A DNA stretch of 25,067 nt from a virus: the IMG/VR virus record IMGVR_UViG_3300004369_000134, positions 1-25,067 of that record; one strand, written 5' to 3'. Position numbers and translations under genes: made by a program. A model generated the notes under the pieces. The model was not told where the DNA came from and ran no database searches. It saw nothing but the letters and a program-made list of their open reading frames with translations. Positions 7,540 to 23,578 of this stretch are shown piece after piece (the first letter of the stretch is position 1; the number at the start of each line of letters is the position of its first letter).

Positions 7540-7541
7540 CG

Positions 7542-7928: not shown

Positions 7929-8320
7929 CTGTCCAGACCGGGGCAACGGCCGCCCTGTATTTCCAAGGAAACCGGGTAGGCAAAGTTAAAAGCTTCAACA
8001 TTCAGACTCAACGAGCTGTCCTTGATGTGACCTCGCTCGGGGACACTGACCGTACCTTTGTCCAAGGCCTACGCCAAAGCTCCGGCACGGCCACCCTGAT
8101 GTACGACCCCGAGGACGCCAATGCAGTGGCGCTCCTCAGCAGCGTTCTTGGTGACAGCACGACTGCAGCCGAAGTTATCTTTCAGATCAACAGCGGAACA
8201 GGCAAAGGTTACAACGCCACCGCCTTTATTACTGATACATCAGTAGGTGTCAATACAGGTGACGTTGTATCAGCAAATATCAACTTCCAGATTCAAGGCA
8301 AACCTGAAGAGACTCTCTAA
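7925..8320 (+). CDS. Tail-tube-like structural protein
   Basis: A 131-residue beta-rich protein with the pattern of tail tube subunits: an early strand GNRVGKVKSFNIQTQRAVLD, then a T-S-L-G turn at VTSLGDTDRTF, and a C-terminal run GVNTGDVVSANINFQIQGKP. The closing TGDVV.A.I.FQ..GKP segment is close to what gpV-type tube proteins show at the end of their tube domain. In most siphoviruses the major tail tube gene lies upstream of the tape measure, so a tube-fold protein downstream of the tip is unexpected. It may be a distal-tail or collar-like ring built on the tube fold rather than the main tube, or the genome may have an unusual order. The ATG overlaps the previous stop (ATGA). Confidence 0.6.
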   Translation: MTVQTGATAALYFQGNRVGKVKSFNIQTQRAVLDVTSLGDTDRTFVQGLRQSSGTATLMYDPEDANAVALLSSVLGDSTTAAEVIFQINSGTGKGYNATAFITDTSVGVNTGDVVSANINFQIQGKPEETL

Positions 8321-9411
8321 TGCCCGTCCTAGGTCGCTACGGCACGCTCAACCTACGTCGCGACCTACCAGCGACTACCGCCGTCCACCCCGAGGACGTC
8401 AACTTTTCACGCCAAAGCCTGTTTGTACAAGACGAGGCTTACTGGACGGGGGACCAGGTAACCCTGATCTGCCAAAAGGGTGTACCCATTGGAGTAGGGA
8501 AAAGTGGAATCGCTAACTGCCCAGACGGGTACGCCTTCTACTCAGGTGGCCAGTACAACCTGAGCCCAGCTCGCCACGCGATCAATGCCGCAGCAAGCTT
8601 CTATAACCCAGACGATCAAGTACCGTTTTACGACGACGTCAGCAAAGCTCAAAAGAACGGCACCTATTACATCTTTAGAAATGAGCTAGACGAGATTAGC
8701 TTTTACCCCACACTAGCCTCCGCTCTCAATAACGACGCAGAGTTCCGCTACGAGATCATCAACGTCGATTTCGGAGAGATGCAGATCTCCCCGAGCAGGG
8801 ATGTCTATTACCAAAATGCCCGAGCCACTTGTCGAGGACGCCTCGGCGTTTACACGTACAGCGACATCGTGTGGATGGAAACAGGCCTAAGCCTGTGCGA
8901 CTACGGTCCGACCTATACCGAACCGACAAGCGGATCCACCCGCTATGACAACGCCGACGTCCGCCCGAGAGAGGAGCTCACCGACCCCTGGCGCTTCACC
9001 GCAAACCTTACGGACTGGACGCTAAACCTCAAGTCCAACGAAATTAACACCAGCACTCTTGGTGAAAAGTTCGGCGAGAGCGTAAAAGCATTAGTGACTG
9101 GAGGCGGCTCTGTCAACTTCTTGTTGGATTACCCCGCTGACATAGAGGACTACAGCCCTGTATCTCTACTTCGCCTAATGCTCCTTATCGAAAAAGGTTG
9201 CAAAGCCGAAGCAAAGTTTCAACTAATCAAAAACGAAACCCCAAACGTTTCAGCATTAAACACAAAACCAGGTCTTTACTATACGACTGAATTACTACTG
9301 GTGGCCAGCGCGATTAACATGCGCGCAGATAGTCTCGTTGCAGGTACCGCTGACTTCGTGACCACTGGTCCGATCAATCTGCGGATGACCTCTCAGGAAG
9401 TCAAGGAATGA
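8320..9411 (+). CDS. Virion structural protein with tube-like C-terminal domain
   Basis: A 363-residue protein of uncertain identity. The N-terminal 200 residues are rich in Tyr and Asp and include GLYxY-type strands with no recognised motif; the C-terminal 150 residues (from about 210) repeat the tube-like pattern: WTLNLKSNEINTSTLGEKFG, VNFLLDYP, and a closing strand VAGTADFVTTGPINLRM. This resembles the domain in the preceding 131-residue gene, so two tube-fold proteins may be adjacent. It could be a major tail subunit with a surface-exposed extra domain, or a ring protein linking tube and fibres. It starts on the previous stop (TAATG) and ends on the next start (ATGA). Structural role is likely from context; assignment of the fold is inference. 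Confidence 0.55.
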   Translation: MPVLGRYGTLNLRRDLPATTAVHPEDVNFSRQSLFVQDEAYWTGDQVTLICQKGVPIGVGKSGIANCPDGYAFYSGGQYNLSPARHAINAAASFYNPDDQVPFYDDVSKAQKNGTYYIFRNELDEISFYPTLASALNNDAEFRYEIINVDFGEMQISPSRDVYYQNARATCRGRLGVYTYSDIVWMETGLSLCDYGPTYTEPTSGSTRYDNADVRPREELTDPWRFTANLTDWTLNLKSNEINTSTLGEKFGESVKALVTGGGSVNFLLDYPADIEDYSPVSLLRLMLLIEKGCKAEAKFQLIKNETPNVSALNTKPGLYYTTELLLVASAINMRADSLVAGTADFVTTGPINLRMTSQEVKE

Positions 9412-12400
9412 CGCGCATCCTGCCGCCTTCGGCACCCAAAGCCATTAACGGCCCCAACATCAACCAGGCGGACTTTAAGGATCAGATTGCTGCGATCGCG
9501 TCCACACTTACGCAGCTGACTGGGTATGCGGACCCAAATAGCGGCGATTCCGCTGAATCACTTATTTCCAGCCCCTATCAGCTGTACGTCAACCCGGTAA
9601 CTGGCCGAGATACATACGTTGGCGGTATTCTCAACGCGCAAACCAACCCAGTAAAGCTTAATCAGCAGACTATCTGTGGCTACACAGCCTTCACCCCATT
9701 TAAATCACTATCGCGCGCCCTCCTTGAAGCGGCCCGCATCTCGGTCGTCCTCGGGACAAACAACGACATCTACGACCGTGTCGTAATCCACTGCTCCGCC
9801 GGCACCCACTACATCGACAACCGAACCTCCAGCACGCTGGTCACAAGCTGGACCGACTTCCTCGAACCGACGGCCGAGCAGCTTGAGGCGTTTAACAGCA
9901 ACGAGACGCCTGGACTGATCCTTCCTCGGGGCGTCTCGATCGTCGGCGAAGATCTCCGCAAAACCATTATCCGTCCACGCTACGTCCCGAGCGTGGATGG
10001 CGGCTTTGACCCTACCCGAGATCGCGGTGCCATTTTCCGGGTCACAGGAGGCAGCTTCTTCTTCAACTTCACTTTCAAGGACGGAGTCGATCCTGACGGG
10101 AACCCAATCCAGCACTCGCATCACCTCCTTTCCTGCTTTGAGTTCTGCGAGAAGGACGATCTGCAGCGCTACTACGACGCAGTCAAGATCGCATTCAATA
10201 CGGCCGAAACACCAGAAGTCATCAACCCCGGTGAGACTGAGATCGTCGCACCACCTACCCCAGCAAGCCTGGCGACAGATAGCACCAAGAACTCCAGCCC
10301 CTACATCTTCAATTGCTCTCTGCGCTCCGATTGGGGCATGTGCGGGGCCTACCTAGATGGCGCGAAAGCGACCGGCTTCCGCTCGATGGTGACTGCCCAG
10401 TTCACCAACGTCAGCCTGCAAACCGACCTCCGAGCGTGGCAGGCATACGACAACGGGATCTGGACAGCCATCTCCGACTACGACGCCTATATCAACAATA
10501 TTGACATTAATAACTTACGCACCACAATTAGCGGAAACAAGAACTGGGCAACTGGTACATATGACGTTGACTGGCGCTCGTTCGGCTTCAAGTGCGTAAA
10601 CGACGCCATTATTCAAGAAGTATCTTGTTTTGTAATCGGTGACTCTATTCACCACTGGACTGCAAGTGGTGGTGAATGCACGATCACAAATAGCAACTCA
10701 AACTTCGGTCAGACCGCATTTCTGTCTGACGGCTTCAAAGGTGTAGGCAGCCCCGGCGGAGCGTTCCCTCAGGACCAAGGATTCTTAATGGATCGCCTGC
10801 GCCGTTCTCGGGCGCTGCTCTCAGATGGATCCAATATCAGCCGTGTCGTAGTCGGAACCGTCAAGTCCTACGACCCCAAAACCGGCACCCTGACACTCAA
10901 CGGAGCAGATGATCTTCAAAGTCGCCTCGCTGCTCAGGGTTACAGCCTGACCGGCGGCACTCCTGGGATCGACAACTACATCTGGATATCCAACAACTCA
11001 CGTCTTGTCGGTCCCGGAGCCAAACCGGGCGATATTGCGGGTAGTACTGCAGTCGACGTCCGCGCCCCCTTGGCTGACATGCCGTATGACCCTTCGGTCC
11101 CCGGCGTAATCAAAGTCAAGCTGACCAACAACAACTTCGACTCCCTGAATGCAGGAGATGAGCCTAACGAGATCGTCAACAACCAGGTTTACCTGCGGCG
11201 TCTGGTGGACACCCGTGGTCCCCGAGATCGCGAATACTCCCTGACGCTGCGCAACACCAACCTCCTCAGCAGCCGTCGTCCCGTCGGCAACTACGTGCTC
11301 CGCCTTGGGGGGCGCAACACCGTACAAGGCCAGCTGGACCCTTCGATCTCGAGGAACCGTATCTATCTCGTTAGTGAAACCGCCGTTGCAGAGGTTCCAA
11401 CGGACCTTGAAGCCACTAACTATTTTCGCGTGGTTCTGCGCTCTGGTGACAGCGCGCCGGTAATTAGCGGTGACATTCCCGCAAGCCGCCTGGGCTACCC
11501 AATTCAGTACCAAGGGCGCATCAAGCGGTGCAAAAAACCGTTTGTTAAGGGGGCGTACAACCCAAGCGACTGGGAAAACGCCCTGAGCATGCTCCCGAGC
11601 GTGACTGGGGTCGAAACCCCACGCAGTGGAATTGCTCCTCCGGTTGTACTGGATAAAGACCTCAGCCCATTTCCTGACGCGACCAATCTCACACCCTCAA
11701 CCGATCTCGCGATTGATTTCAACACCGATCCTGACCTGATTGATCAGATCACCTCAGCTTCGGACTATCTCGCTCTGCGAAACCTGCTGATCATCTTGGG
11801 CTACCCGGCAGACCTTGTGGGCCCAACAACAGGCAGCCCGACGTTCCGAAACAAAATCCTCGAGCCGCAATCCAGCTTCAACAGCTGCTTCTGGAACCCG
11901 AGCACGTCAGGCATCACGCCGTCTGGCCTGCTTCGCAAAGCTGAATCCTGGCCGATCGAATTCAATAGGCCCAGCCTGATCCGAGGTTATGGCCACGCAT
12001 ACGAATGGGTTGGCTACTCGAACTACTCCAAAGCACTTCCAGTTAACCAGCAGACCTCACTGACGGACCAGGCGCTGATTGACTTCCTGGCTGCCAACCT
12101 CGGGGGTGGGCGTGTCTACAACACTGGCTTCACAGAAGAAGGCCTCCTTGTCCAAGGGGATACTGTTCGAGATCTGGGCACAAACCGCGACCTCTCCATC
12201 GAAGCTGCCGGTCTCGGTGGCCTAAGCGGGGATCCCACCTTCGAGAACCTGGTCCCGAGCACGCTTGAAACCCTTCAGGTCAGCAACCGGCTATCGGTGG
12301 AGGGCAAGACACTTCTTCGCGATGTCGACATTAACGGCACGCTGAGCGGAGTAACCAAGTACGAAAACCTACCCAAGGCAACGCCGCTAGCCGAAGGTGT

Positions 12401-13382
12401 AATCAGGATTGCGTCAACATCGCAAGTTGCAGAGCTGGCCAACGAGGAGGTAGCTGTTACCCCTGCCGGGCTGCTTAGCGCACTGAGTCTGGCAATTGTC
12501 GACAAGGTGGATATGCGGATGAGCCTTTCAAAAAACCTCGCCGTACCATCAAACACTCAACCTGAGAGCGACACCTTATTTATTCACCCCTTCAGCGGAA
12601 GCGGTCTGAGCTTGTATGACAACTCCCGTAAAGCGTGGCGCTACTTTAATTTTACAGGCATACAAGCAAAATCATTAGCACAGTGTGCAAAGCCGCAAAC
12701 CAATTACGACATCTACATCTACAGGGTCTTAGACAAACTAGAGCTTGAGTTTGTTGAATGGAGTGGAGATGACGCAACTGACAGCCCCCTTAAGGACTCC
12801 ATTGACGGAGTGCTCGTTAAAAAAGGAGCACCAGAGCGCCGATATATAGGTGTAGTCAGAACAACAAGCCCAGGTAAAAGCATTATTGATTTGGGTGACT
12901 CATACAAACCAAGTACCAGCTCTACCTATCCCCGTATTTGGCTTAGTAACGTCTATAACCTGTACGGCGCCAGAGGTCTGTATCTATTTGGGCAAGGTTG
13001 GGAAGAAGCAACCAATACTTTTACCTACCCACCAGGTTATCAGGAAAAACCAAGGGTTAGCTTTGTGACTGCTATTCCGTCGTATGTTCGCGCAGATCTC
13101 GACATACTTGTAACACCACCAACAGACAACTCCGGAGTTGTTGAAGTTGCTCCCGGCTTAAACATTAGAAGCGGCGACACATCCAGTCCTACAGGCGATT
13201 GCCTATTTGGTCGTGTTGCAGGGGCAGGAGACAACCAGAGCGCTTCTTCGACATTCTCGAGAACACTAGATGTAGGCCTAAACGAAATCTTCTACCTTTA
13301 CAAGAGTTTCTTTAGCAGCGCTACAGTTCCAACAGTAAACGAGTCGCCGCAGCACGGCATGATCGTTTTCTGCCAGGCCTAG
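9408..13382 (+). CDS. Large tail fibre / baseplate fibre protein, beta-helix type
   Basis: A 1324-residue protein of a type common in cyanophages, which show a short helical N-terminus followed by NPVTGRDTYVGG, then NQQTICGYTAFTPFKSLSRA and a pectate-lyase-like beta-helix. Here those motifs lie within about residues 60-110, and the beta-rich body continues to about 480 with Asn/Gly turns. A fibre repeat typical of phage side fibres, LAEGVIRIAS with VTPAGLL, sits at about 990-1025. The last 290 residues (after about nt 12510) use more A/T-rich codons and end in HGMIVFCQA, probably the receptor-binding tip. It overlaps the upstream stop (ATGA) and is followed after two bases by the next fibre gene. 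Fibre role is firm by size, composition and position; which receptor it binds cannot be told. Confidence 0.75.
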   Translation: MTRILPPSAPKAINGPNINQADFKDQIAAIASTLTQLTGYADPNSGDSAESLISSPYQLYVNPVTGRDTYVGGILNAQTNPVKLNQQTICGYTAFTPFKSLSRALLEAARISVVLGTNNDIYDRVVIHCSAGTHYIDNRTSSTLVTSWTDFLEPTAEQLEAFNSNETPGLILPRGVSIVGEDLRKTIIRPRYVPSVDGGFDPTRDRGAIFRVTGGSFFFNFTFKDGVDPDGNPIQHSHHLLSCFEFCEKDDLQRYYDAVKIAFNTAETPEVINPGETEIVAPPTPASLATDSTKNSSPYIFNCSLRSDWGMCGAYLDGAKATGFRSMVTAQFTNVSLQTDLRAWQAYDNGIWTAISDYDAYINNIDINNLRTTISGNKNWATGTYDVDWRSFGFKCVNDAIIQEVSCFVIGDSIHHWTASGGECTITNSNSNFGQTAFLSDGFKGVGSPGGAFPQDQGFLMDRLRRSRALLSDGSNISRVVVGTVKSYDPKTGTLTLNGADDLQSRLAAQGYSLTGGTPGIDNYIWISNNSRLVGPGAKPGDIAGSTAVDVRAPLADMPYDPSVPGVIKVKLTNNNFDSLNAGDEPNEIVNNQVYLRRLVDTRGPRDREYSLTLRNTNLLSSRRPVGNYVLRLGGRNTVQGQLDPSISRNRIYLVSETAVAEVPTDLEATNYFRVVLRSGDSAPVISGDIPASRLGYPIQYQGRIKRCKKPFVKGAYNPSDWENALSMLPSVTGVETPRSGIAPPVVLDKDLSPFPDATNLTPSTDLAIDFNTDPDLIDQITSASDYLALRNLLIILGYPADLVGPTTGSPTFRNKILEPQSSFNSCFWNPSTSGITPSGLLRKAESWPIEFNRPSLIRGYGHAYEWVGYSNYSKALPVNQQTSLTDQALIDFLAANLGGGRVYNTGFTEEGLLVQGDTVRDLGTNRDLSIEAAGLGGLSGDPTFENLVPSTLETLQVSNRLSVEGKTLLRDVDINGTLSGVTKYENLPKATPLAEGVIRIASTSQVAELANEEVAVTPAGLLSALSLAIVDKVDMRMSLSKNLAVPSNTQPESDTLFIHPFSGSGLSLYDNSRKAWRYFNFTGIQAKSLAQCAKPQTNYDIYIYRVLDKLELEFVEWSGDDATDSPLKDSIDGVLVKKGAPERRYIGVVRTTSPGKSIIDLGDSYKPSTSSTYPRIWLSNVYNLYGARGLYLFGQGWEEATNTFTYPPGYQEKPRVSFVTAIPSYVRADLDILVTPPTDNSGVVEVAPGLNIRSGDTSSPTGDCLFGRVAGAGDNQSASSTFSRTLDVGLNEIFYLYKSFFSSATVPTVNESPQHGMIVFCQA

Positions 13383-13384
13383 CC

Positions 13385-16198
13385 ATGAGTCTCGAATTTA
13401 TCCTCAAAAACAGCCCACTCAGCGCAGACATTCCCGAGTCTGGCCAACTAGCCGCCGGCGAAATTGCGCTGAATTACCACAGCGACGGCTGCTTTTTGAC
13501 CTGCGTAGACACGGAAGGTGAAGTCCGCACGCTTGGTGAGGTCTGGGTTAACGAGCAAGCCCCAACCGCACCTCAAGTAGGACGACTGTGGTTCGACAAA
13601 ACAAAAAAGGTCCTGAATATCTGGCTTAGTGACCAGGTTCAGTGGTTTGCGGTCGGCAGTGGCGTGGGCCCCGAGCCTGGCGGCGGCGTTCAATCAATTT
13701 CCGTCATCCCGAACGGAGGTGTTTTTCTCTCTGGTACGGCAGCAAATCCGGTACTTTCTGTCGACACAACGGTTGTCAGGACCTCCGGCGACCAGACGAT
13801 TAGTGGTCTCAAGACGTTCCAGACAGGAATCAAAGGAAACCTCGAAGGTAACGCAAGCACTGCAAGCATCGCTGATTCGGTAAATCAAAACGTCCTCGCT
13901 GGTGCAGGTCTTACTGGCGGGGGCCAGCTCACACGCTCGGTCACGCTTGCGGTTCTTCCCGCAACCAAGTCAACAATCGGTGGCGTCAAGCAGGGAGCCG
14001 GTACCGCGATTGCTTCTGACGGAACCATCTCCGTCGATGTCACTCCGGGCAACCAGTGGCTCGGCACGATTGATGTCGGTAGCCAGGACCCACCAGAAAC
14101 CCCGCCGTCAAACGGGAGCTATTACATCAACACCGTCACGGCTCTTGCTCGAACTAGTTGGATCGGTATTGCCGGCACTCAATGCTTTGACGGCAACTAC
14201 ATTATCTGGAATTCAAAAGCAGGTCTCTGGGAGAACGCCGGAACCATTATTGGTGGGGGCGTCGAAGAGATCAAAGCTGGAAGTGGAATTGCTGTTCAAG
14301 ATCCGAAGTCAAGTGCACCTACGGTCAGTGTTGACGGCACAATTGCTCGATCCAACCTAAACATCTTTACCGGCACGGGTTTAACCGGCGGCGGCACTTT
14401 AGCTTCTGACATCACAATCGGTCTGACCAAAGCCTCGCAATCCAATCTTGGGGGTGTAATTGTTGGTAGCGGACTGCAAATCCAAGACGGAGTCCTGTCT
14501 GCTGACATTCCAAATGTCCTTGTTTTCAAAGGCAGCGTTGCTGTCGATACAGATTCAGCACCCCCGAGCCCGGCGGCAGGTTGGGCGTACATCAGTAAGA
14601 CGCAAGCAATTGCAAATGAAACCTGGGTTGGCATTGCAGGTAAGACCATTCCGTCTGGGGAGCTGATTGTCTTTGACGGTACTAACTGGGCTGAGTCCGG
14701 CAATATTGGAACCGTCGGTGTTGAATCGATTCTTGCTGGGCCTGGCATCACGGTGCTGGATCCCAACAGCAGCGCACCTACGGTTCAAGTCAACGATCAA
14801 GTTGTTCAGGTCACAGGCGATGTCACGATCAACGGTGAAAAGACCTTTACCAAAACAATTGTTGGCGACATCAGCGGTAACGCTAGCTCTGCCGACACGG
14901 CAACCCAAGCTGACGTATCAGCCGCTTGCACAAAACAAGTTCTTGCGACAAACGGCCTGAGCGGTGGTGGCGCCTTAACGGCAGATGTTGTCCTCCAGTG
15001 TGATAACACAGTCGTCCGAACCATCGGGAATCAAACCCTTGATGGGACCAAGAAATTCCTTAAGGCTATTCAGGGCAACCTCAACGGAAACGCGGATACC
15101 GCAACCAACGCTCAATTCTCCGAGCGTGCTGTGCTGGCGGACACCCTGGACAAATCCATCGTTCCTGGCGACGGCTTACAAGGTGGAGGCAAATTTCTCA
15201 CTGATGTAGACATTGCAGTTGACACTAGTGTTCTTCGCGACTTTGGTAACCAAGATATTGATGGCACCAAGAAATTCCTCAAAGGGATTCAGGGCAACCT
15301 GAACGGCAATGCCGATACAGCGACCAACGCCCAGTTTGCTCAACAGGCCGTACTTGCTAAAACCCTAGACCTTTCAATTCTGGCAGGGGATGGCCTATCG
15401 GGTGGTGGTCTGCTTACCACGAATCAGACACTTGCTGTAGATGCTTCTGTTGTCCGCACTGCAGGTGACCAAACCCTAGACGGCAACAAGAAGTTTCTGA
15501 AAGCGATTCAGGGCAACCTGAATGGCAACGCTGATACAGCTACCAATGCTGTTAATGCGACAAATTGCAGCCGCAACGTCATTGCAAGCGGAGGCTTAAC
15601 CGGCGGCGGAACGCTCAACGCAGACGTCACTATCGGACTTAACGCGACGGGCGTAACTGCTGGCACTTACACCTCAGCAACAATCACTGTCGACGCGTAC
15701 GGCCGTATTACAGCGGCAAAGAGCGATAGCGGATTCCCGGCCGGTACGCGTATGGTTTTCTGCCAATCATCCGCCCCGTCAGGCTGGACGCAGGTTACGG
15801 ACGGCGCCTTTAATGACGCAGCACTCCGTGTTGTTACAAGCTCGGGGGGCGGTACGGGCGGCTCTATTAGCTTCTCGAGCTTTTTCTCGAGCTCCTCTAC
15901 CTACTCAGGCAAGATCAATCTCAGTGGAGGTAGCGTCGGATCTACGACTCTGACCGTTGCCCAGCTTGCTTCTCACGGTCACGGTTTTAGCCCCGGAACT
16001 GTGACAGCACCAGTGGGCCAGTACTCTGCCACACGAGGGAACCAGCCCCTCGGAAACGTCGGCACCAGCGTGAGCGCCAACGGCAGCAGCCAAGGCCACA
16101 GCCACACCTTCGACGGCGCCGTCGCAGACGGTAGCTTCACAACTAACTTCTCTGTTAAATATGTAACAACAATAATCTGCGAAAAGCAGGCTGTATGA
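13385..16198 (+). CDS. Tail fibre with tail-collar (gp12-like) C-terminus
   Basis: A 937-residue fibre. The N-terminal 100 residues (LKNS..., GEIALNYH, a WF.....L.IW turn) form a module also present at the start of the 1546-residue fibre downstream, probably the tail-attachment domain. The shaft holds five copies of a GNxxGNAxTA ... GLxGGGxL repeat (residues 130-755) and two copies of a longer unit ending in SSAPTVxV. The C-terminus, from about 785, is a phage tail-collar domain: GTRMVFCQSSAPSGWT, then SHGHGF (H864, H866) and GHSHTF (H905, H907). In T4 gp12 and gp37 such HxH motifs bind metal inside an intertwined trimer; the same use here is inferred. Its stop overlaps the sulfotransferase-like start (ATGA). 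Confidence 0.85.
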   Translation: MSLEFILKNSPLSADIPESGQLAAGEIALNYHSDGCFLTCVDTEGEVRTLGEVWVNEQAPTAPQVGRLWFDKTKKVLNIWLSDQVQWFAVGSGVGPEPGGGVQSISVIPNGGVFLSGTAANPVLSVDTTVVRTSGDQTISGLKTFQTGIKGNLEGNASTASIADSVNQNVLAGAGLTGGGQLTRSVTLAVLPATKSTIGGVKQGAGTAIASDGTISVDVTPGNQWLGTIDVGSQDPPETPPSNGSYYINTVTALARTSWIGIAGTQCFDGNYIIWNSKAGLWENAGTIIGGGVEEIKAGSGIAVQDPKSSAPTVSVDGTIARSNLNIFTGTGLTGGGTLASDITIGLTKASQSNLGGVIVGSGLQIQDGVLSADIPNVLVFKGSVAVDTDSAPPSPAAGWAYISKTQAIANETWVGIAGKTIPSGELIVFDGTNWAESGNIGTVGVESILAGPGITVLDPNSSAPTVQVNDQVVQVTGDVTINGEKTFTKTIVGDISGNASSADTATQADVSAACTKQVLATNGLSGGGALTADVVLQCDNTVVRTIGNQTLDGTKKFLKAIQGNLNGNADTATNAQFSERAVLADTLDKSIVPGDGLQGGGKFLTDVDIAVDTSVLRDFGNQDIDGTKKFLKGIQGNLNGNADTATNAQFAQQAVLAKTLDLSILAGDGLSGGGLLTTNQTLAVDASVVRTAGDQTLDGNKKFLKAIQGNLNGNADTATNAVNATNCSRNVIASGGLTGGGTLNADVTIGLNATGVTAGTYTSATITVDAYGRITAAKSDSGFPAGTRMVFCQSSAPSGWTQVTDGAFNDAALRVVTSSGGGTGGSISFSSFFSSSSTYSGKINLSGGSVGSTTLTVAQLASHGHGFSPGTVTAPVGQYSATRGNQPLGNVGTSVSANGSSQGHSHTFDGAVADGSFTTNFSVKYVTTIICEKQAV
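13772..15650 (+). repeat. Five tandem/dispersed fibre repeats (GNLNGNADTA type)
   Basis: Protein-level repeats inside the collar fibre. Copies start at V130 (nt 13772), V473 (14801), V543 (15011), V616 (15230) and V689 (15449). The last three are directly tandem at 73 residues each, with near-identical IQGNLNGNADTATNA and GGG-x-L elements. Synonymous sites between the tandem copies differ clearly (for example aaattcctt / aaattcctc / aagtttctg), so they are not a very recent duplication. Copies 1 and 2 are separated by a longer unit that itself occurs twice. Confidence 0.9.
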
Positions 16199-16758
16199 CT
16201 CTATTTGTAAACAGTGAAGATAACCGCAAACTGTACCTAGCCCACCCTCCTCGCACGGGAGGTAGATTCCTAAGTCACCTACTCTCAGGAAACGGCTGGA
16301 TACCGCACTACGACAACTTCGACATAATCTACAAAAACCAAGAATTACCACACTGCGACTTGTCTCGCTATAGCAAGTTTATAGACGTAGAAAACGTAAC
16401 CATCTTAGGCATCGTAAGAGATCCACTTGAACGCTACGTTTCCGCATTAAGCATCATCTCCCACGAACCATCAGAACTTAGTCGTTGGAAATACTCTAAT
16501 TTATTTACACCGCAAACATCTTTTTTTGCCGCTAGATCGCACTGGTGGCACTTTGAGCAAGGCTTTGGACCCGACCTGATTTCCTGGGCAGAGGACACTA
16601 CAAAGTCATCGCTCCCAGAAATTCCAACAATTCCGAAAACAGACTTTGATTTATTCCCTAAAATAAAGGCAACGACCGAGCATCTAATGTTCTGTCAGCT
16701 TTTCTACTTCGAGGACTATGAGCGCTTCGGTTATAGACCCCTGCTACAGGATCATTGA
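16195..16758 (+). CDS. Sulfotransferase-like protein
   Basis: A 187-residue protein with both PAPS-binding signatures of sulfotransferases. The 5'-phosphosulfate loop is HPPRTGGRFL at residues 17-26, and the 3'-phosphate site is GIVRDPLERYVSALSI with R75 and S83 at the family spacing of eight. The C-terminus, YFEDYERFGY, matches the Y-x-D/E-F-x-x-F-G-Y close often seen in Sulfotransfer_2-type proteins. At 187 residues it is shorter than most members (about 230-300), so the substrate-binding part may be reduced. It would move sulfate from PAPS to a hydroxyl or amine on a glycan, protein or small molecule; the substrate is unknown. It starts on the fibre stop (ATGA) and overlaps the next gene by 41 bases. 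Local DNA is more AT-rich than the fibre shafts, suggesting separate acquisition. Confidence 0.72.
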   Translation: MTLFVNSEDNRKLYLAHPPRTGGRFLSHLLSGNGWIPHYDNFDIIYKNQELPHCDLSRYSKFIDVENVTILGIVRDPLERYVSALSIISHEPSELSRWKYSNLFTPQTSFFAARSHWWHFEQGFGPDLISWAEDTTKSSLPEIPTIPKTDFDLFPKIKATTEHLMFCQLFYFEDYERFGYRPLLQDH

Positions 16759-17209
16759 AACTCCATCAGGATCCTGGTGCCGTCTTGAGCTAGCTGAGGT
16801 TCCAAGCCTATTCGAAGCTAAGCGTGATCTGCACAAATACATAGTTCAGCTCAAGCAGTTCCTCGCCCCGAGCTCGGTGCGCGAGTTTAGTAGAAATGCC
16901 TCTGACCTCAGTGCGCGCGACCTCGGGGTAAGTCTCTTAACAGAGATACGAGAAATAATGCCCTCAATATTTCCCCTTTCTATCATCAGCTACGAAATAA
17001 AGACTGATGAACCTCAGCTTACTCTTGCGGATTTTTGCCCACTACTGCTAATGGGCCTACAAGGCAAAAGCACAGTCAGCTTTCTTCACGGCGAAATCAC
17101 AAAGACCTTGGAACCCGGCGATGCTTTGTTCTGCCCCGGCGGTGCACTACTTACTCCAACCCTCAGTCTCCCCGAGAGCGGCGTCTTTATAGGACGAGTC
17201 GGCCGATGA
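16718..17209 (+). CDS. Unknown protein with cupin-like C-terminus
   Basis: A 163-residue protein without a sure family. Its C-terminus contains FLHGEITKTLEPGDALF (residues 122-138) followed by CPGG, resembling the end of a cupin or a JmjC/2OG-type double-stranded beta helix: a PGDxLFxPGG turn is the usual second cupin motif. The His normally found after that turn is absent (ALLTPTL), and only H124 and E126 could serve as first-motif ligands, so metal binding is doubtful. The N-terminal 110 residues are unassigned. The only in-frame ATG near the expected start is at 16718, which makes a 41-base overlap with the sulfotransferase-like gene. The GAGG at 16711-16714 lies only three bases from that ATG, too close for a good ribosome site. 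Its stop overlaps the oxygenase start (ATGA). Confidence 0.6.
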   Translation: MSASVIDPCYRIIETPSGSWCRLELAEVPSLFEAKRDLHKYIVQLKQFLAPSSVREFSRNASDLSARDLGVSLLTEIREIMPSIFPLSIISYEIKTDEPQLTLADFCPLLLMGLQGKSTVSFLHGEITKTLEPGDALFCPGGALLTPTLSLPESGVFIGRVGR

Positions 17210-17778
17210 ACTGTCTAGAGCACGCTGATCTGATATATGAATACCCAAACGCCGTATCCCTTGAACTGTGCAACAAGCTAAGGCAAAGCATACTAGATAA
17301 TGGAACAAGTCTTAATTCTAATGAATACAGAACAGAGGCTCGCAACAATCATGCATATTTCTTAGGTCGACCTGAATTCAAAGATCAAGACACACTAGTC
17401 AACACACTATTCTCTCGTACGATAAGGCAGTATGTAACAGAGAATCCAATCATAAGAGATCATGTATATAACAATGATTTTTTGCATGACATGCGCTCAT
17501 TCTATGTATTTAGATTTTACGGACCAGAAGACGACTATAACTGGCATGCCGATCTAGACCCTCATTGCATAGCACTATTTAGCCAAATACTTTACTTTAA
17601 CGACGATTACCAAGGTGGAGAGCTTGAATTTCTGATGCACCCGCTAACACTAAAACCAAAAGCTGGAAGCATCCTATCTTTCCCATCAGACATATCACAC
17701 ATTCACCGATCACGTAAAATCACAGCAGGACACAAACACATCATTTTTGCGAGCTTCTTTAAACTACCAAGACAATGA
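17206..17778 (+). CDS. Fe(II)/2-oxoglutarate-dependent oxygenase, prolyl-4-hydroxylase type
   Basis: A 190-residue oxygenase. The double-stranded beta helix carries the iron ligands W-H114-A-D116 and H167 (in ISHIHRS), the strand pattern YQGGELEF, PKAGSILSFPSD, and K177 ten residues after H167. In collagen-type P4H that lysine binds the 2-oxoglutarate C5 carboxylate, so the active site looks intact. Known members hydroxylate prolines, lysines or small molecules; some cyanophages carry similar enzymes of unknown target. I use ATG 17206, which overlaps the upstream stop (ATGA); a longer in-frame reading from 17035 adds 57 residues that are an out-of-frame copy of the preceding gene and are not family-like. 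Composition is AT-rich (22 G/C in 60 bases at 17401-17460). Its stop overlaps the next ATG. Confidence 0.85.
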   Translation: MNCLEHADLIYEYPNAVSLELCNKLRQSILDNGTSLNSNEYRTEARNNHAYFLGRPEFKDQDTLVNTLFSRTIRQYVTENPIIRDHVYNNDFLHDMRSFYVFRFYGPEDDYNWHADLDPHCIALFSQILYFNDDYQGGELEFLMHPLTLKPKAGSILSFPSDISHIHRSRKITAGHKHIIFASFFKLPRQ

Positions 17779-18065
17779 AAAAAGGTCACTACTGCCCTCT
17801 AATCAAAAAAGAATGCATCGAGCACAAGTGTGAATGGTACTTTCAAGTAAACGGAACAAATCCAAACACAGGTGAACCGGCTGAAAGATATCAATGCGCC
17901 GTTGTACTAACACCTTTATTGCTGCTAGAAAACGCAAACCAACAACGCTCGACAGCTGCCGCTGTAGAAAGCTTTAGAAACGAATCTGTCGTAAAGAACG
18001 AGGTTACAAACCAGCTTCTTTATCGCTTTGCCCAGGTGGCCAATATCCTTCCCGCTTCCGATTAG
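17775..18065 (+). CDS. Small Cys-motif protein (possible metal binder)
   Basis: A 96-residue protein starting with HYCPLIKKECIEHKCEWYF. Four Cys lie at 7, 14, 19 and 41 (C-x6-C-x4-C-x21-C), with H5 and H17 nearby, followed by a Gly/Pro/Asn loop (NGTNPNTGEP) and a Leu-rich helical C-terminus. The N-terminal CPLxKKxCIxHxC pattern looks like a conserved phage hypothetical with a small zinc or Fe-S site, but I cannot name a function. It is coupled to the oxygenase by an ATGA overlap and is the last gene of the AT-rich cassette. It may be an adaptor or a redox partner; this is a guess. Confidence 0.7.
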   Translation: MKKGHYCPLIKKECIEHKCEWYFQVNGTNPNTGEPAERYQCAVVLTPLLLLENANQQRSTAAAVESFRNESVVKNEVTNQLLYRFAQVANILPASD

Positions 18066-18101: not shown

Positions 18102-18884
18102 ATGCCCCCTTCAGCCTCAGACTACTTCCAGACAAAGATTATTCCAGTAGACGGCACTGTAGTAAGAGGTCCTGATGTAGCACTAAATGTAGACCTAAAA
18201 GACTTGAGTTTTCATTATATAGATTTTTATTCAGCCGATAAAACATCGCATGAAGGCAAAGGCGTACTGTACCCCTCCTCAAATATGCAAGGAGGAGAGG
18301 AACTCACATCTCTTGAGCCCTGGAAGTCTTACATTGAACAAGCGGACGCAATTATTTACGCTAGTAAAAACCCAAAAGTATATTATTTTACGGCTAAAAC
18401 AGAGTACCAAGGACAGACTACTTATGTAGGTGAGCAAATCACTCTGAACCGTCCCCCGCAAACTCAACCCGAGCAGACAACAGATATTAAACCCGAACCA
18501 GCTGCACAAAGTGTATACACGTGGTACCTCTACTGGAAAGAAGACACATCAGAGTGGAGCTGGGAAGTACTTAACCCGGAAGAAGAAGGTAATACAAAAG
18601 ATAAAGCCATCTCTCTAACAAAACGAGTTGCGTATAACCTTCTCCAACTGACTGACTGGGTAGTCACCAAATCAATGGAGGCACAGACGAGCGTACCCGA
18701 GGATCTGAAGCAGCTTCGCACCGAACTCCGAACTAGCGCACAAACACGTCTTGACAAGATTGATACATTAACAACCGATGAGGCTATTTTTGCCTACACA
18801 CGTAGCGAGGACTATCTCACATGGCCTGAAGTACTAAACTCTAAATATGTGCGGCAGACATACGTACAGGCGCTGTATTCCTAA
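18102..18884 (+). CDS. Fibre-assembly-like protein (XkdW/tail chaperone-like C-terminus)
   Basis: A 260-residue protein. The N-terminal half is beta-rich with many Tyr and Asp and no recognised motif. Residues about 122-135 form a Pro/Gln/Thr linker (RPPQTQPEQTTDIKPEP). The C-terminal part contains LLQLTDWVVTKSMEAQTSVP and then LRTELRTSAQTRL, closely matching the L-x-x-T-D-W-x-V-x-R-x-x-E ... P ... R-x-x-I/L-R pattern of XkdW-like and fibre-assembly proteins, and ends with a WPEV motif typical of phage tail-fibre chaperones. It may fold or attach the large fibre encoded next. Starting ATG is the only one after the stop at 18084. Function inferred from the C-terminal pattern plus position. Confidence 0.6.
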   Translation: MPPSASDYFQTKIIPVDGTVVRGPDVALNVDLKDLSFHYIDFYSADKTSHEGKGVLYPSSNMQGGEELTSLEPWKSYIEQADAIIYASKNPKVYYFTAKTEYQGQTTYVGEQITLNRPPQTQPEQTTDIKPEPAAQSVYTWYLYWKEDTSEWSWEVLNPEEEGNTKDKAISLTKRVAYNLLQLTDWVVTKSMEAQTSVPEDLKQLRTELRTSAQTRLDKIDTLTTDEAIFAYTRSEDYLTWPEVLNSKYVRQTYVQALYS

Positions 18885-18937: not shown

Positions 18938-21900
18938 ATGTCGCTTTCGCTTCAGCTTAAGAACTCTGTAGTTGCCGGAAAACTGCCAGCACCCTCCCAG
19001 CTAGGTGTTGGTGAGATCGGCCTGAATTACCACAAAGGCGATCCTTTTCTGGTCTGCTGCGATAGCGACGGTGTCATCCGGCGTCTGAACTCCATTTCCG
19101 TAGGAAATACAGCGCCTGGATCACCTACGCCAGGTCTTCCCTGGATTGATACGTCTGGAAATGCACCTGTACTGAAAGTCTGGGTTTCCAGTGCCACCCA
19201 ATGGGCGACGCTCAGCGGAGGTAGCGGACCCAATCTGCCAATCACAACCGATGAGATTGCTGATGGTGCAGTCACATCAGCCAAGATCGCAGACGGCGGT
19301 GTCGAGGCAACCAACCTTGCAACAGCTGCGGTTGAGACCAGCGCACTCGCCGACCAAGCGGTAACCGGTCTCAAGCTTGCTGACCAAGCTGTTGACGGAT
19401 CAAAGCTGGCCGCAGCTGCAGTTACGACCGCCGCGCTCGGGAATGAAGCCGTCACCAGCGCGAAACTCGCTGCCGGCTCCGTCACTGCTGTCAAACTCTC
19501 AGCGCAGAGTGTCATTACCGCCGCCCTTGCAGATAGTTCCGTCACCACGGGCAAGATTTCGGCAGGCGCCATCATCAGCTCGCTGATCGCCAACGGCGCG
19601 GTCGGTACCGCCCAACTCGCCCCGAGCGCGGTCGACACGACAAACCTCGCAAATGGCGCGGTCACATCGGACAAATTGGCCGACGGAGGCGTCAGCTCCG
19701 CCAAGATTGCCGACGGTGCGGTCAAGTTTGAAGCAATCGATCCCACCGCCGTCACCCCGAGCACGGAAGCCTGGGTTGCTAGCGACACCGCATTCCCAAC
19801 TACCGCAGCAGTCCAAGCGCAACTGGACGCCGCTCCCGGCAAACAGGTCGACACTGACCACATCAAGGATCTGGCTGTTACGAGCGGCAAGCTGGCGGAC
19901 CGTGCAGTTACGAGCACGAAGATCAACCCCGGTGCCGTTTCCTTCAGCGGTTTAAGCGCAGGAGCAGTTCTGCCGAGCGGCCAAACATGGAGTGCCAGCG
20001 ACGTCAAGCTTCCGACTAGCGCCGCTGTTCAAGCTCAGATCGACGCAATCCCTGAACGTCAGATCGGCACAGCTCAGCTAGATGACGGGGCTGTCACTGA
20101 GCCCAAGTTAGCCGACGATGCCGTCAGCAAAGTCAAGATCGCGAACGGCGCAGTCGACCTCACCAAGATCGACCCGAGCTCGGTGCTACCTGGTACCACC
20201 AACTGGGCGAACGTTGACACGCAGCTTCCAACTGCCGCTGCTGTTCAGAAGTACGTCACCAATCTGCCCAAAGGACCGATCAACACCGGTGACATCACCG
20301 ATAAAGCGGTGACGGGAGCAAAGATCGCCGATGGGACGATCAGCAACCAGCAACTTGCAAGCTCGGCAGTCGCCTTTGGCAATATCACTGCGGGCGCAGT
20401 TCAAACCAGCACGACTGCTTGGCAGAACTCAGATGTTGTTCTCCCGACGACCGGTGCGGTTAACGCGCGTGTGAACGCGGTCATCAGCGCGCAAACCATC
20501 CAAACCAGCAACATTGCAGACCTCGCAGTCACGACCGAAAAGCTGGCCTTGGGTGCTGTCACCAACCCAATCCTCGGGCAAGGTGCGGTTCAATTCGACA
20601 ACCTCAACGAGGATCTGCTCTCCGCATCCACAGAAAGCTGGGTCCCAAGCGACACCCAAATTCCCACAACCCAGGCAGTCACCAAATACTTCCACGACCT
20701 GCCTGTACCGATCATTGATACCGCCAACCTCGCGGACAACGCTGTCACCACAGCCAAGATCGCACCAGGTGCCGTCGTCAACGACCGCATTCGTCAAGGC
20801 ACGATTCAATTCGACCGCTTATCCGTTGATGCCGTACGCGTTTCGTCTGAACCCTGGGTCGCAACAGACAGCACCATCCCAACCACAAAAGCGGTCGCTG
20901 ACGAAGTCAATACACTTCTGACCAACCTGGTCATCGGCACGGAGCAGATTGCTGACTTCGCTGTCACCACCGACAAGCTCGGTAACGTCAGTGTCACCAC
21001 GGCAAAACTAGCCACCGGCGCGGTCACCCACGAAAAGCTGGCCCCGAGCTCGGTGCAGCTGGACAATTTCACGGCAGGTCTAGTCAACAACAGCACTGAA
21101 GACTGGAACCCCAGTGACAGTGTCCTTCCAACGGTCGGTCTGGTAGACAAGCAGCTCACCACAAAGCTGCAAGACCTGGAGATTCAATCCGGTCAGATTG
21201 CCGATGAAGCTGTCACCACGTCGAAGCTTGCACCATTAGCTGTAACAAACGCGAAGCTCAGCAACAGCGCAATCACCTTCAACAAACTCGCTTCAGGCCT
21301 GGTTCTGACCAGCTCAGAGGACTGGAATGCCACCGACATCACCCTCCCGAGCACGGCAGCAACCAACTCTCGGATCACTGAGCGACTGAACAGCTGGATT
21401 GTCGATCGCGAGCACATTGGCAATGGCCAAGTCACGACTGAAAAGATCGCTGATCAGGCTGTCACCAACGCCCAGATTGCGGATCTTACGGTCGGAACAG
21501 CTCAGATTGCAGACGAGTCTGTTACTCCGATCAAGCTGGATCGCGAGTACATCTCCGGCCCTGCAACCAAAACTCACCTCGGCGGTATCAAGGTAGGCGC
21601 CAACCTGATCATCACAGCCGACGGCACGCTGAGCGCCGAATCCGGTCCCACTGGCGGCATCGTCGACACCATTGTTCCTGGCTCGGGCATCCAGGTTGAC
21701 GGAAGCTCTGATCCGGCAAACCCAGTAGTCAGCGCACTTGTCGCTAAGACGGATCAGCTCGGTAGCGTCATTGTCGGCGCCAACTTGAACATCACCCCCG
21801 AGGGTGTGCTGAGTGCAACAGCCGGCGGCGGTGACGTGGATTCGGTGGTTGCCGGAGGCGGCATCACAGTCGACAACGCAGATCCGGTCAATCCGAAGGT

Positions 21901-23578
21901 GTCGGTAAAGGTAGGGGAATCCCTGACGATTGATCCAGACGACGGAACCCTTGAGGTTAATGCGGCGCCAGGTCCGGGCATCGATATCAGCGCAGGCACT
22001 GGTAACAGCACTGGGTTCGTCGTTTCAGCGAAACCGGCAACCCCGAGCGAGCTGGGTTCGATCAAGGTCGGCGAGTATCTCTCGGTTACTCCTGACGGCA
22101 CGCTGTCAGTTGTTGGAGGCGGTGGCGGTGTCATCGACACAATCAAGACCACAGCTGACGGTCTGAACGTTGACTCGACCGATCCGACAAACGTCGTCAT
22201 CAACCTCGAGCCCGCGACTACGGGTGCAGTTGGCGGTGTCAAAGTTGGCGATGGCCTTGTTGTCACAGCCGATGGAACTTTAAGTGCTGAAGTATCTTCG
22301 CCCTCTATTACAATTTGCAAAGAAGATACGACTAGCTACACCGTAAAAAACAACGATTACAACCGCACTGTAGTCTTTCGGGAAACCACGGCTAATTCTT
22401 CTGTAATCCTAGACGGCTCTACAGAATACCGAGTCGGCTCAATTATTGACATTGTATGTTCGACCGCTTCTGATACTCAGATTGTTCCGATTAACGAAGC
22501 CCAACTTGATACTGGCTATCCCGGTGGATTTGGACGTGCCATTCCAGTAACTAAGACTTCTGCAAAGGGTACTCCGTATACAGCACAGTATGCGCGTGCG
22601 ATGTATATTGGGGACAAAATATGGACGCTGCGAGCTCCAATGCTTACCATGGGCGCCCCGTACATTTCATACGCCGGACGCGTAGACAAGAAATTTTCTG
22701 CAGGCAAAATACAAGTATTTTCAAATGCCACTGGTGAAAACCTGGCGCGTATAAGTACAATGCAATTTACAGCCACCCCAAAAGACTTTACAGGTGAGAC
22801 AAAAATTGTAAAAGGCTCCAACAAAGATACAAGCGCAGTCATTGAAGGCTTAGAGGAAGGTAAGCGTTACACAATCTCTACTCAATATATTTATGACGAC
22901 GGCACTACCCCAGATGCTGTAAGACAATCAGTAAACACAATTGATGTTTTAGTGGACAGCAGCGTTCCTCTTGCTCCACAAAACCTGAAAGTTGTCGGCT
23001 ATAGAGGAGCGCGCGCATTCATCACTTTCGACTACGACGACACGATTAGTGCACCTTGGGACTTTATTGAAGCACAAGCTCTCAGCTCAACTGGGGATGT
23101 TGTTTGCGATTGGGTTCCTGTTTGTTCAGCCAAGGACCAAAGCCCTGTATACCCCTACTACTACGTGCAGTTCTGGCCCACTAACCCAGTCCAAGGCGAC
23201 AACACTCTGATTAAAATCCGCCTTTGCACAAATAGCGGAATTAAGGGAGCTTCGTCTTTCGCAGCTACAACTAATTGGGACCAAAACCTTATCACGCCTG
23301 AAGTAACCGTAAACAATTCGCGTGGATCAACAATCGCAAAAATTACATGGAAGCTTACTGAAGGTTCTTACAACCCGCCAGATTGCAGGTACAGTGTTGT
23401 AATCCGAGAAGGTGGAGAGCGTATTGTTTACCAGTCAACGCCTGATTGGAATGACGCAAATGGTGTTACCTTTAACGGCAACACAAATGTGCAGTACTAC
23501 GTAGACGTGACAGCGCAGACCTACGGCCGCTCAAACAATACTGTAGTAACCCCATTTAAATTTGTACCTTTTAGGTAA
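18938..23578 (+). CDS. Very long repetitive tail fibre
   Basis: A 1546-residue fibre. Residues 1-100 (LKNSV..., GEIGLNYH, LKVWV..TQWATLSGG) are paralogous to the N-terminus of the collar fibre, so both probably dock at the same or a similar site. The shaft has three repeat classes: sixteen 10-residue repeats (107-266), eight repeats of about 72 residues with a W-x-x-S/T-D-x-x-x-P-T motif (261-881), and five KVGxxLxITxDGTLS units (882-1118). The C-terminal 430 residues use more A/T-rich codons and contain up to three Fn3/Ig-like beta sandwiches (about 1270-1340, 1345-1440, 1450-1546), likely the tip. No catalytic motif is seen. It has its own strong ribosome site and overlaps the next gene (TAATG). 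The fibre role is firm from repeats and context. Confidence 0.85.
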   Translation: MSLSLQLKNSVVAGKLPAPSQLGVGEIGLNYHKGDPFLVCCDSDGVIRRLNSISVGNTAPGSPTPGLPWIDTSGNAPVLKVWVSSATQWATLSGGSGPNLPITTDEIADGAVTSAKIADGGVEATNLATAAVETSALADQAVTGLKLADQAVDGSKLAAAAVTTAALGNEAVTSAKLAAGSVTAVKLSAQSVITAALADSSVTTGKISAGAIISSLIANGAVGTAQLAPSAVDTTNLANGAVTSDKLADGGVSSAKIADGAVKFEAIDPTAVTPSTEAWVASDTAFPTTAAVQAQLDAAPGKQVDTDHIKDLAVTSGKLADRAVTSTKINPGAVSFSGLSAGAVLPSGQTWSASDVKLPTSAAVQAQIDAIPERQIGTAQLDDGAVTEPKLADDAVSKVKIANGAVDLTKIDPSSVLPGTTNWANVDTQLPTAAAVQKYVTNLPKGPINTGDITDKAVTGAKIADGTISNQQLASSAVAFGNITAGAVQTSTTAWQNSDVVLPTTGAVNARVNAVISAQTIQTSNIADLAVTTEKLALGAVTNPILGQGAVQFDNLNEDLLSASTESWVPSDTQIPTTQAVTKYFHDLPVPIIDTANLADNAVTTAKIAPGAVVNDRIRQGTIQFDRLSVDAVRVSSEPWVATDSTIPTTKAVADEVNTLLTNLVIGTEQIADFAVTTDKLGNVSVTTAKLATGAVTHEKLAPSSVQLDNFTAGLVNNSTEDWNPSDSVLPTVGLVDKQLTTKLQDLEIQSGQIADEAVTTSKLAPLAVTNAKLSNSAITFNKLASGLVLTSSEDWNATDITLPSTAATNSRITERLNSWIVDREHIGNGQVTTEKIADQAVTNAQIADLTVGTAQIADESVTPIKLDREYISGPATKTHLGGIKVGANLIITADGTLSAESGPTGGIVDTIVPGSGIQVDGSSDPANPVVSALVAKTDQLGSVIVGANLNITPEGVLSATAGGGDVDSVVAGGGITVDNADPVNPKVSVKVGESLTIDPDDGTLEVNAAPGPGIDISAGTGNSTGFVVSAKPATPSELGSIKVGEYLSVTPDGTLSVVGGGGGVIDTIKTTADGLNVDSTDPTNVVINLEPATTGAVGGVKVGDGLVVTADGTLSAEVSSPSITICKEDTTSYTVKNNDYNRTVVFRETTANSSVILDGSTEYRVGSIIDIVCSTASDTQIVPINEAQLDTGYPGGFGRAIPVTKTSAKGTPYTAQYARAMYIGDKIWTLRAPMLTMGAPYISYAGRVDKKFSAGKIQVFSNATGENLARISTMQFTATPKDFTGETKIVKGSNKDTSAVIEGLEEGKRYTISTQYIYDDGTTPDAVRQSVNTIDVLVDSSVPLAPQNLKVVGYRGARAFITFDYDDTISAPWDFIEAQALSSTGDVVCDWVPVCSAKDQSPVYPYYYVQFWPTNPVQGDNTLIKIRLCTNSGIKGASSFAATTNWDQNLITPEVTVNNSRGSTIAKITWKLTEGSYNPPDCRYSVVIREGGERIVYQSTPDWNDANGVTFNGNTNVQYYVDVTAQTYGRSNNTVVTPFKFVPFR
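19256..19735 (+). repeat. Sixteen 10-residue repeats (IADGAVTSAK type)
   Basis: A strict period of 10 residues (30 bases) starting at I107 of the long fibre, with no indel across sixteen units. The pattern is hydrophobic-A-x-x-(A/S)-V-x-x-x-K/A, for example LADQAVTGLK then LADQAVDGSK. Such regular repeats suggest a thin beta-solenoid or beta-spiral segment. DNA copies are diverged. Confidence 0.9.
19718..21580 (+). repeat. Eight repeats of about 72 residues in the long fibre
   Basis: Each unit has a strand pair (AVxFxxL..G.V..S), then W-x-x-S/T-D-x-x-x-P-T/S-x-x-A, then a helical linker, then two or more copies of the 10-residue motif (IADxAVTTxKLA). Unit lengths vary slightly; units 6 and 8 carry one or two extra 10-residue motifs. 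The alternation suggests globular knots inserted along a solenoid. Confidence 0.85.
21581..22295 (+). repeat. Five KVGxxLxITxDGTLS units
   Basis: GGIKVGANLIITADGTLSAE and four diverged relatives (near nt 21750, 21905, 22055, 22220), with GGG and DPxNPxV spacers. The same GGVxxGxGLxxxDGxLS logic occurs in the collar fibre at about 13980 and 14450, so the two fibres share more than the N-terminal module. Confidence 0.8.

Follow-up and report, generated by a model that had tools for sequence, protein, structure and literature searches.

The DNA analysed here is a stretch of 25,067 nucleotides, called the window in the following, which covers positions 1 to 25,067 of IMG/VR virus record IMGVR_UViG_3300004369_000134. 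Its operon for the tail fibres, by which the host is gripped, carries a set of predicted enzyme genes, and the virus is probably a siphovirus with a Synechococcus-type cyanobacterium as host. The region contains the following features:

13385..16198, + strand: upstream tail fibre, 937 amino acids, with a collar-type (GHGH) C-terminus (open reading frame; PF18338 BppL_N, 96 bits; phrog_7911 tail protein)
16195..16758, + strand: gene 1, small PAPS-dependent-type sulfotransferase, 187 amino acids (phrog_3347; PAPS motifs; AF2 model)
16718..17209, + strand: gene 2, orphan protein, 163 amino acids (open reading frame; no family cut-off reached)
17206..17778, + strand: gene 3, Fe(II)/2-oxoglutarate (2OG) oxygenase of the prolyl-4-hydroxylase-like superfamily, 190 amino acids (PF13640; phrog_61; complete motif)
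17775..18065, + strand: gene 4, small Cys-motif protein, 96 amino acids (conserved Cys set; fibre-operon neighbourhood)
18102..18884, + strand: tail-fibre-assembly-like gene, 260 amino acids (phrog_4912; position after the Cys gene)
18938..23578, + strand: downstream tail fibre, 1546 amino acids (open reading frame; alignment; composition and sequence)

A preliminary description of this DNA had presented genes 1 to 4, at 16195-18065, as a modification cassette inserted between two fibre genes and coupled stop to start. All four reading frames are indeed intact at this place, and each is clearly coding in its own frame. ATGA overlaps were found at three junctions, joining the upstream fibre to the sulfotransferase (at 16195), the orphan gene to the oxygenase (at 17206), and the oxygenase to the Cys gene (at 17775), whereas the sulfotransferase and orphan frames share 41 nucleotides. 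By these four overlaps the block is tied to the upstream fibre. A fibre gene adjoins directly on the 5' side, but on the 3' side the assembly-like gene at 18102-18884 precedes the next fibre. The block had also been described as more AT-rich than the fibres (GC 0.54), which applies to the sulfotransferase (0.445), oxygenase (0.393), and Cys genes (0.440) but not to the orphan gene (0.51). As the neighbouring non-fibre genes at 18102-18884 and 23578-23937 are equally AT-rich (GC 0.44), base composition provides no evidence of a separate origin and was rejected as a sign of foreign DNA.

The motifs mark gene 1 as a small sulfotransferase of the PAPS type, in agreement with its first assignment. 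Residues 5-125 match phrog_3347, a profile named galactose-3-O-sulfotransferase, with an E value of 1.2e-9. Both PAPS motifs are present, the 5'-PSB motif HPPRTGGR (H17-R24) and the 3'-PB motif R75-D-P77..R80..S83 (RDPxxRxxS), and histidine 53 is conserved. The cut-off of Pfam Sulfotransfer_2 (PF03567) was missed (17.9 versus 22 bits) and membership was not assigned. The AF2 model had a pLDDT of 86.4, and its top 12 PDB matches were all sulfotransferases, weakly matched at E values of 0.01 or higher and TM scores of 0.52 or lower; they are mostly heparan sulfate sulfotransferases, carbohydrate enzymes too weakly matched to decide the substrate. A PDB sequence search with the single query yielded immunoglobulin-type chance matches only, and a search with the alignment yielded the sulfotransferase 5x2b at an E value of 0.47. 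The protein could conceivably be a degraded or noncatalytic relic, leaving the oxygenase and the Cys gene as the parts that matter, since with 187 amino acids it is among the shorter members of its family (about 183-230) and misses the Pfam cut-off. This is very improbable, however, since the gene has an intact, coding frame, the protein keeps each of the 12 positions that do not vary among 16 phage sequences, and its alignment extends to the C-terminal end. Among 84,980 species genomes a strict pattern for the subfamily found no member and a looser one six distant members, a near-absence from cellular genomes which fits a virus-specific substrate. The nearest named relative, YP_004324849.1 of P-SSM7, also in phrog_3347, is 27% identical over the whole length. 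Its start likewise overlaps the stop codon of a gene for a virion component, but this is gp5, the baseplate hub and not a fibre, and the 2OG genes of P-SSM7 lie at least 2 kb downstream.

Gene 3 is, by score and motif, a complete Fe(II)/2OG oxygenase, as had been proposed. It exceeds the PF13640 cut-off (36.4 versus 27 bits, E 1e-8, residues 102-182) and matches phrog_61 with an E value of 8.6e-27. The iron triad and the basic residue for 2-oxoglutarate binding are complete (H114-x-D116 ... H167 ... K177), and these four columns are conserved in an alignment with nine cyanophage relatives, the best of which are found in S-RIM32 (37% identity) and S-H9-2 (34%). Because the relatives align from the methionine at 17206, the start was placed there instead of at the program-called 17035. 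In a PADLOC search for defence systems a generic 2OG model was the sole match.

The protein between these two enzymes had been called cupin-like, an identity for which support was not found. It reaches the cut-off of neither cupin family PF05899 (12.5 versus 23.5 bits, E 0.13) nor PF07883, has no significant match among PHROGs and NCBIfam profiles, and with H39 and H124 as the only histidines in 163 amino acids it lacks the His/Glu metal-ligand motifs of cupins and the ligand set of 2OG enzymes. Profile and motif checks leave it devoid of an enzymatic signature. A search of 50,697 phage records gave no match at an E value of 1 or below, and no full-length relative was found. In two loci (L002 and L003) the N-terminal part of a phage 2OG oxygenase is 39% identical to the protein over 31 residues, there is also a weak C-terminal match, and hhalign against the 2OG family aligned 21 columns at 8% probability. 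A match to L002 with an iterated HMM (E 5.8e-19) was discarded as circular, L002 being already part of the model. A single-sequence AlphaFold model was set aside for its pLDDT of 33.6. The protein may be a degenerate double-stranded beta-helix or a pseudo-enzyme of the 2OG type.

The Cys motif of gene 4 (CPLIKKEC-x4-C ... C ... AVESFRNE) is present as first described, with 24 invariant columns across six sequences, but going by its relatives the gene is a widespread small fibre-operon gene and not cargo of a cassette. At least 592 relatives occur in IMG/VR, and the gene lies between or beside fibre genes in P-SSM2, S-SCSM1, S-B05, and CRP-361. Most loci have a fibre immediately 5' and an assembly-like gene immediately 3', the usual order being collar fibre, Cys, tail-fibre-assembly gene, and often then a 2OG oxygenase; in most relatives the gene directly 5' of Cys belongs to the C-terminal family of the fibre at 13385-16198. 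The gene at 18102-18884 matches phrog_4912 weakly and partially (E 3e-5) and is 26% identical over 249 amino acids to the gene directly following Cys in locus L015, whose own matches are to phrog_4912 and to a family of tail assembly chaperones. The two fibres of the window share an N-terminal attachment domain (42% over about 100 amino acids). Searching with this N-terminus found the two closest siphovirus relatives, L197 and L198, both of which end before the cassette site; no close relatives were found with the tail gene at 8320-9408. The term four-gene modification cassette is too broad, as the orphan protein has no enzymatic signature and the Cys gene belongs to the fibre operon.

The linkage of such genes to fibres was followed in other phages. 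The nearest named relatives of the oxygenase (T4-GC 104 in S-PM2 and Syn1, and the genes of S-RIM32, S-H9-2, and S-H9-1) are of the PF13640 type, 29-37% identical, and lie on the same strand directly upstream of a giant tail-fibre or virion gene, an arrangement shared by five cyanomyovirus genera. Unlike the gene in the window they stand singly, upstream of the fibre and separated from it by a short gap instead of a stop-start overlap, with no sulfotransferase adjoining. A 2OG gene lies within -4 to +5 genes of Cys in 13 of 22 dereplicated Cys loci, and the order fibre, Cys, assembly gene, 2OG, which puts it at position +2, is seen in 39 of 72 loci, or after dereplication in 10 of 19 clusters. 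Of 34 PF13640 matches on 17 larger contigs, 15 are no more than 5 kb from the Cys gene, against an expectation of 4.0, and the majority of 2OG genes in large phages lie away from it. In locus L045 a pair of 2OG genes occupies exactly the site between the collar fibre and the Cys gene.

The preliminary description named single 2OG oxygenases in cyanophages but no parallel for the combination; the pairing of sulfotransferase and 2OG oxygenase beside fibres is not unique to this phage. Going by gene content, sulfotransferase and 2OG genes beside fibres recur in several unrelated marine phage groups. Uncultured marine phages carry the same sulfotransferase family and 2OG genes, adjacent or overlapping, by fibre or assembly genes, as 2OG, sulfotransferase, a 74-amino-acid protein, and a phrog_529 fibre (L107/L143) or as collar fibre, assembly gene, 2OG, sulfotransferase, 2OG (L113/L115). 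They differ from the window in gene order, in several 2OG paralogues, in phage type, and in having no relative of the orphan protein, and L113 additionally in a split carbamoyltransferase (PF02543/PF16861). Another island (L207-L210) unites in one run fibre genes, two PF13640 genes, and a sulfotransferase of a different family (Sulfotransfer_3), but it also encodes a PAPS-making APS kinase (PF01583; clear in L207 and L209), and its fibre has a weak collagen-repeat match. A P-loop gene near the sulfotransferases of L104/L135 is ambiguous as an APS kinase. Of 33 sulfotransferase clusters, 8 have a 2OG gene as immediate neighbour (permutation mean 3.7, p 0.012), and at least 12 are located behind a gp46-like recombination gene in T4-like phages, at a distance from fibres. 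The fibre linkage expected earlier is supported for this type of 2OG gene and for the combination; as many T4-like sulfotransferases are located elsewhere, it is a tendency. In the literature searched no paper was found which describes a fibre-linked 2OG and sulfotransferase pattern.

The fibre operon could be a hotspot prone to insertion, the genes in it being auxiliary metabolic cargo which acts on free metabolites and has no functional tie to fibres. Cyanophage papers interpret 2OG genes as host-metabolism genes (PMC9602691), same-family sulfotransferases occur beside recombination genes, and cargo at fibre loci is variable, L015 having the Cys and assembly pair and none of the three cargo genes. 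Nevertheless this explanation is unlikely, as both kinds of enzyme turn up again by the fibres of unrelated phages, in one case with a sulfotransferase from another family plus an APS kinase, and 2OG genes are enriched about four-fold near the fibre-linked Cys gene. Altogether the neighbourhood data favour a fibre or tail module over general host metabolism.

Tentatively preferred, with a probability a little short of even, is the reading that oxygenase and sulfotransferase modify fibres or tail during assembly. The oxygenase, sulfotransferase, and orphan genes lie between the fibre with the collar tip and the conserved pair of Cys and assembly genes. The enzymes would be produced late, along with the fibres, and would act during fibre or tail assembly. 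With O2 and 2-oxoglutarate as cosubstrates the oxygenase would hydroxylate side chains in a fibre or tail protein by prolyl-4-hydroxylase-type chemistry, and the sulfotransferase would transfer sulfate from host PAPS to the hydroxyl so made, to tyrosine, serine, or threonine, or to an attached sugar, which would put negative charge on the receptor-binding surface. Roles in fibre assembly would fall to the Cys protein and the product of the 18102 gene, with the orphan protein an accessory subunit at most. A viral 2OG-type enzyme is also known from Chlorella virus PBCV-1, the prolyl 4-hydroxylase of which, as cited in PMC9301287, is discussed with regard to tail-fibre collagen. PBCV-1 is, however, a eukaryotic virus, and peptide substrates have been tested with its enzyme, whereas the enzyme of the window is known from sequence and neither fibre of the window contains a GXY run of four or more.

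This lack of collagen repeats counts against fibre modification, as do the sulfotransferases scattered to gp46-like genes, the carbohydrate enzymes among the weak structural neighbours, and the 2OG genes far from Cys; a single phage can have 24 2OG genes in all (PMC9602691). The earlier proposal of an action on fibres or on the glycan they bind is backed by gene linkage and weakened by the sulfotransferases away from fibres and the missing collagen repeats. Late operons, moreover, often house unrelated cargo genes.

The main alternative, though a rather unlikely one, is that the enzymes alter the host surface glycan (LPS, capsule, or exopolysaccharide), where sulfation and hydroxylation would mask the receptor, so that superinfection is blocked or progeny detach; location in the fibre operon would let fibre specificity and receptor alteration be inherited together. 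The galactose-3-O-sulfotransferase name and the heparan sulfate neighbours would suit such a role, and related islands hold other sugar-tailoring genes, namely the carbamoyltransferase of L113, a NolO-like one adjoining the sulfotransferase near fibres in S-T4, and a MannoseP_isomer cupin adjoining a 2OG gene in L102. The window, however, has no glycosyltransferase or other polysaccharide gene, 2OG oxygenases of the PF13640 type are atypical as glycan enzymes, and for masking the receptor, expression coupled to late fibre translation would come late.

Similar enzyme sets in distant viruses, assembled at comparable sites, hint at a chemical tailoring by phages of their fibres or of the sugars to which these bind. 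A broader and more doubtful proposal is that marine and freshwater tailed phages share a recurring fibre-operon system which tailors their own host-binding fibres after translation or after glycosylation. It would consist of 2OG hydroxylases and sulfotransferases, joined in some cases by carbamoyltransferases, halogenases, or a PAPS-making kinase, and through it fibre chemistry, besides fibre sequence, would help to set host binding. If fibres do bear hydroxyl or sulfate groups, host binding would not be predictable from fibre sequence alone.

The window is a virus record of 25,067 bases. Its genes form a tail module of siphovirus-like type, laid out as follows:

6-3761, tape measure
4228-7539, large tail protein; tail genes run on to 9411
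9408-13382, fibre
13385-16198, fibre directly 5' of the block
16195-16758, sulfotransferase
16718-17209, orphan
17206-17778, Fe(II)/2-oxoglutarate (2OG) oxygenase
17775-18065, small Cys-motif protein (Cys gene)
18102-18884, tail-fibre-assembly-like gene
18938-23578, fibre 3' of the block
23578-23937, small gene
23930-24526, glucosaminidase-type endolysin

As the large tail protein matches S-LBS1, S-CBS3, and S-CBS1, Synechococcus phages with genomes of 30-35 kb, the host is probably a cyanobacterium. The closest siphovirus relatives are two loci, L197:1-6916 and L198:1-8611 (tail protein 42-51%), which share two fibres and another three tail genes with the window and both stop at the fibre preceding the cassette site. 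Past the endolysin a 92-residue reading frame on the minus strand (24498-24776) may mark the beginning of a module encoded on that strand.

Codon statistics found all four reading frames of the block to be coding in the stated frame. Stop-to-start coupling of the four genes had been described; this holds for the ATGA junctions at 16195, 17206, and 17775, whereas the junction at 16718 is a 41-nt overlap. A 36-nt gap separates the last frame from the gene at 18102. The start of the oxygenase was set at 17206 because the alignment of its relatives begins at their first residue, and the gene encodes, as the preliminary description had it, a complete oxygenase, assigned to PF13640 by profile and motif alignment, its activity being predicted. 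The assignment of the first gene as sulfotransferase-like was also borne out, by a match to phrog_3347 (E 1.2e-9) and retained PAPS-type motifs (5'-PSB loop HPPRTGGR and 3'-PB motif RDPxxRxxS), though the Pfam sulfotransferase cut-off was not reached in the profile search. Every residue invariant across 16 phage sequences is retained, and a structure model from these 16 (pLDDT 86) has sulfotransferases as its top PDB matches, all weak, none below E 0.01. The name cupin-like was not borne out for the second gene, which lacks profile support, encodes two histidines in all, and has no relative among 50,697 phage records. Thirty-one residues shared with the N-terminal start of a phage 2OG oxygenase are suggestive of a degenerate relative of such enzymes.

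The Cys gene is very common in phages (at least 592 IMG/VR relatives). It adjoins tail fibre genes in P-SSM2, S-SCSM1, and S-B05, and in CRP-361 a tail assembly chaperone lies directly 3' of it. Over 81 loci the operon order is collar fibre, Cys gene, assembly-like gene, 2OG oxygenase, with the collar fibre at -1 in 70/80, the assembly-like gene at +1 in 66/78, and the oxygenase at +2 in 39/72. As these include many near duplicates they were dereplicated to 22 clusters, yielding 17/22, 18/20, and 10/19, respectively, and an oxygenase near the Cys gene in 13 of the 22. The assembly-like label is based on an iterated profile; of the members checked against phrog_4912, three matched weakly and three not at all. 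On 17 larger contigs, 15 of 34 PF13640 matches lay no more than 5 kb from the Cys gene (4.0 expected at random); as some of these contigs are interrelated, any probability attached to this excess is approximate. Unlike this usual position after the Cys gene, the cargo genes of the window precede it; one compared locus, L045, has two 2OG genes at the same site, 5' of the Cys gene.

Named relatives of the oxygenase also point to fibres, lying immediately upstream of a giant tail fibre or virion gene in five cyanomyovirus genera and a few genes from a structural or fibre gene in S-RS29, Sf-CH11, Sf-FP1, and S-RIM2. Genes named ferrochelatase in S-SCSM1 and P-SSM2 and DNA endonuclease V in S-RS29, P-SSM7, and Sf-CH11 are classed by Pfam as 2OG oxygenases (PF13640/PF13759, scores above the cut-off), and none of the five has a ferrochelatase or endonuclease Pfam match (L020:7713-9074, L021:6871-7464, L191:4266-4820, L004:11593-12171, and L193:5462-6016). 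The remark that pelagiphage ferrochelatases always adjoin 2OG genes (PMC9599517) may stem from such misnaming. Four loci (L007, L008, L010, and L014) contain about six to eight oxygenase-like stretches in series within 9-11 kb.

Among the best 80 IMG/VR sulfotransferase loci, forming 33 clusters, a 2OG gene is immediately adjacent in eight (permutation mean 3.7, p 0.012) and within three genes in 11. The neighbourhoods are of two kinds, fibre-linked and SbcC/gp46-linked, at least 12 of the 33 clusters sitting instead behind an SbcC/gp46-like gene of T4-like phages. Gene-neighbourhood searching supported the proposed fibre linkage, as a tendency, for the oxygenase and for its combination with the sulfotransferase. 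The order is 2OG, sulfotransferase, a 74-residue protein, and fibre phrog_529 in L107 and L143, and collar fibre, assembly gene, 2OG, sulfotransferase, 2OG, and carbamoyltransferase in L113 and L115. The carbamoyltransferase of the L113 island (6255-7713) consists of two adjacent genes (PF02543, PF16861); in a marine phage (L155:3959-7480) two tryptophan halogenases (PF04820) directly follow sulfotransferase and oxygenase. The strongest sign of recurrence is L207-L210, as these have another sulfotransferase family and were reached by a fibre N-terminus search with neither enzyme as query: an APS kinase (PF01583, 48 bits against a cut-off of 21) and a Sulfotransfer_3 enzyme, together with two oxygenases of PF13640, are interleaved with fibre genes in one run (L207:11049-15044), one fibre having a weak collagen-repeat match.

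That phages without close kinship repeatedly have hydroxylating and sulfating enzymes at their fibres favours the fibre, the tail, or its receptor as the site of the target. Coupling to the fibre would make the enzymes appear together with it, and modification of fibre or tail has, in our estimate, a little under an even chance. That they act on a host glycan is rather unlikely. Papers class these phage genes as auxiliary metabolic genes, and action on a free metabolite, or mere hitch-hiking cargo, seems slightly more doubtful still.

Phage sulfotransferase function has been called unclear (PMC10580990), co-located 2OG genes were noted in pelagiphages (PMC9599517), and prolyl 4-hydroxylase of viruses has been mentioned along with tail-fibre collagen (PMC9301287). 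No paper describing fibre-linked 2OG/sulfotransferase sets was found in a search which covered only a minority of subscription papers and preprints, so that this absence is weak evidence. The parts of the block are of known kinds; their combination inside a fibre operon, in the lineage of the window, is a new version of a recurrent arrangement which has apparently remained undescribed so far.
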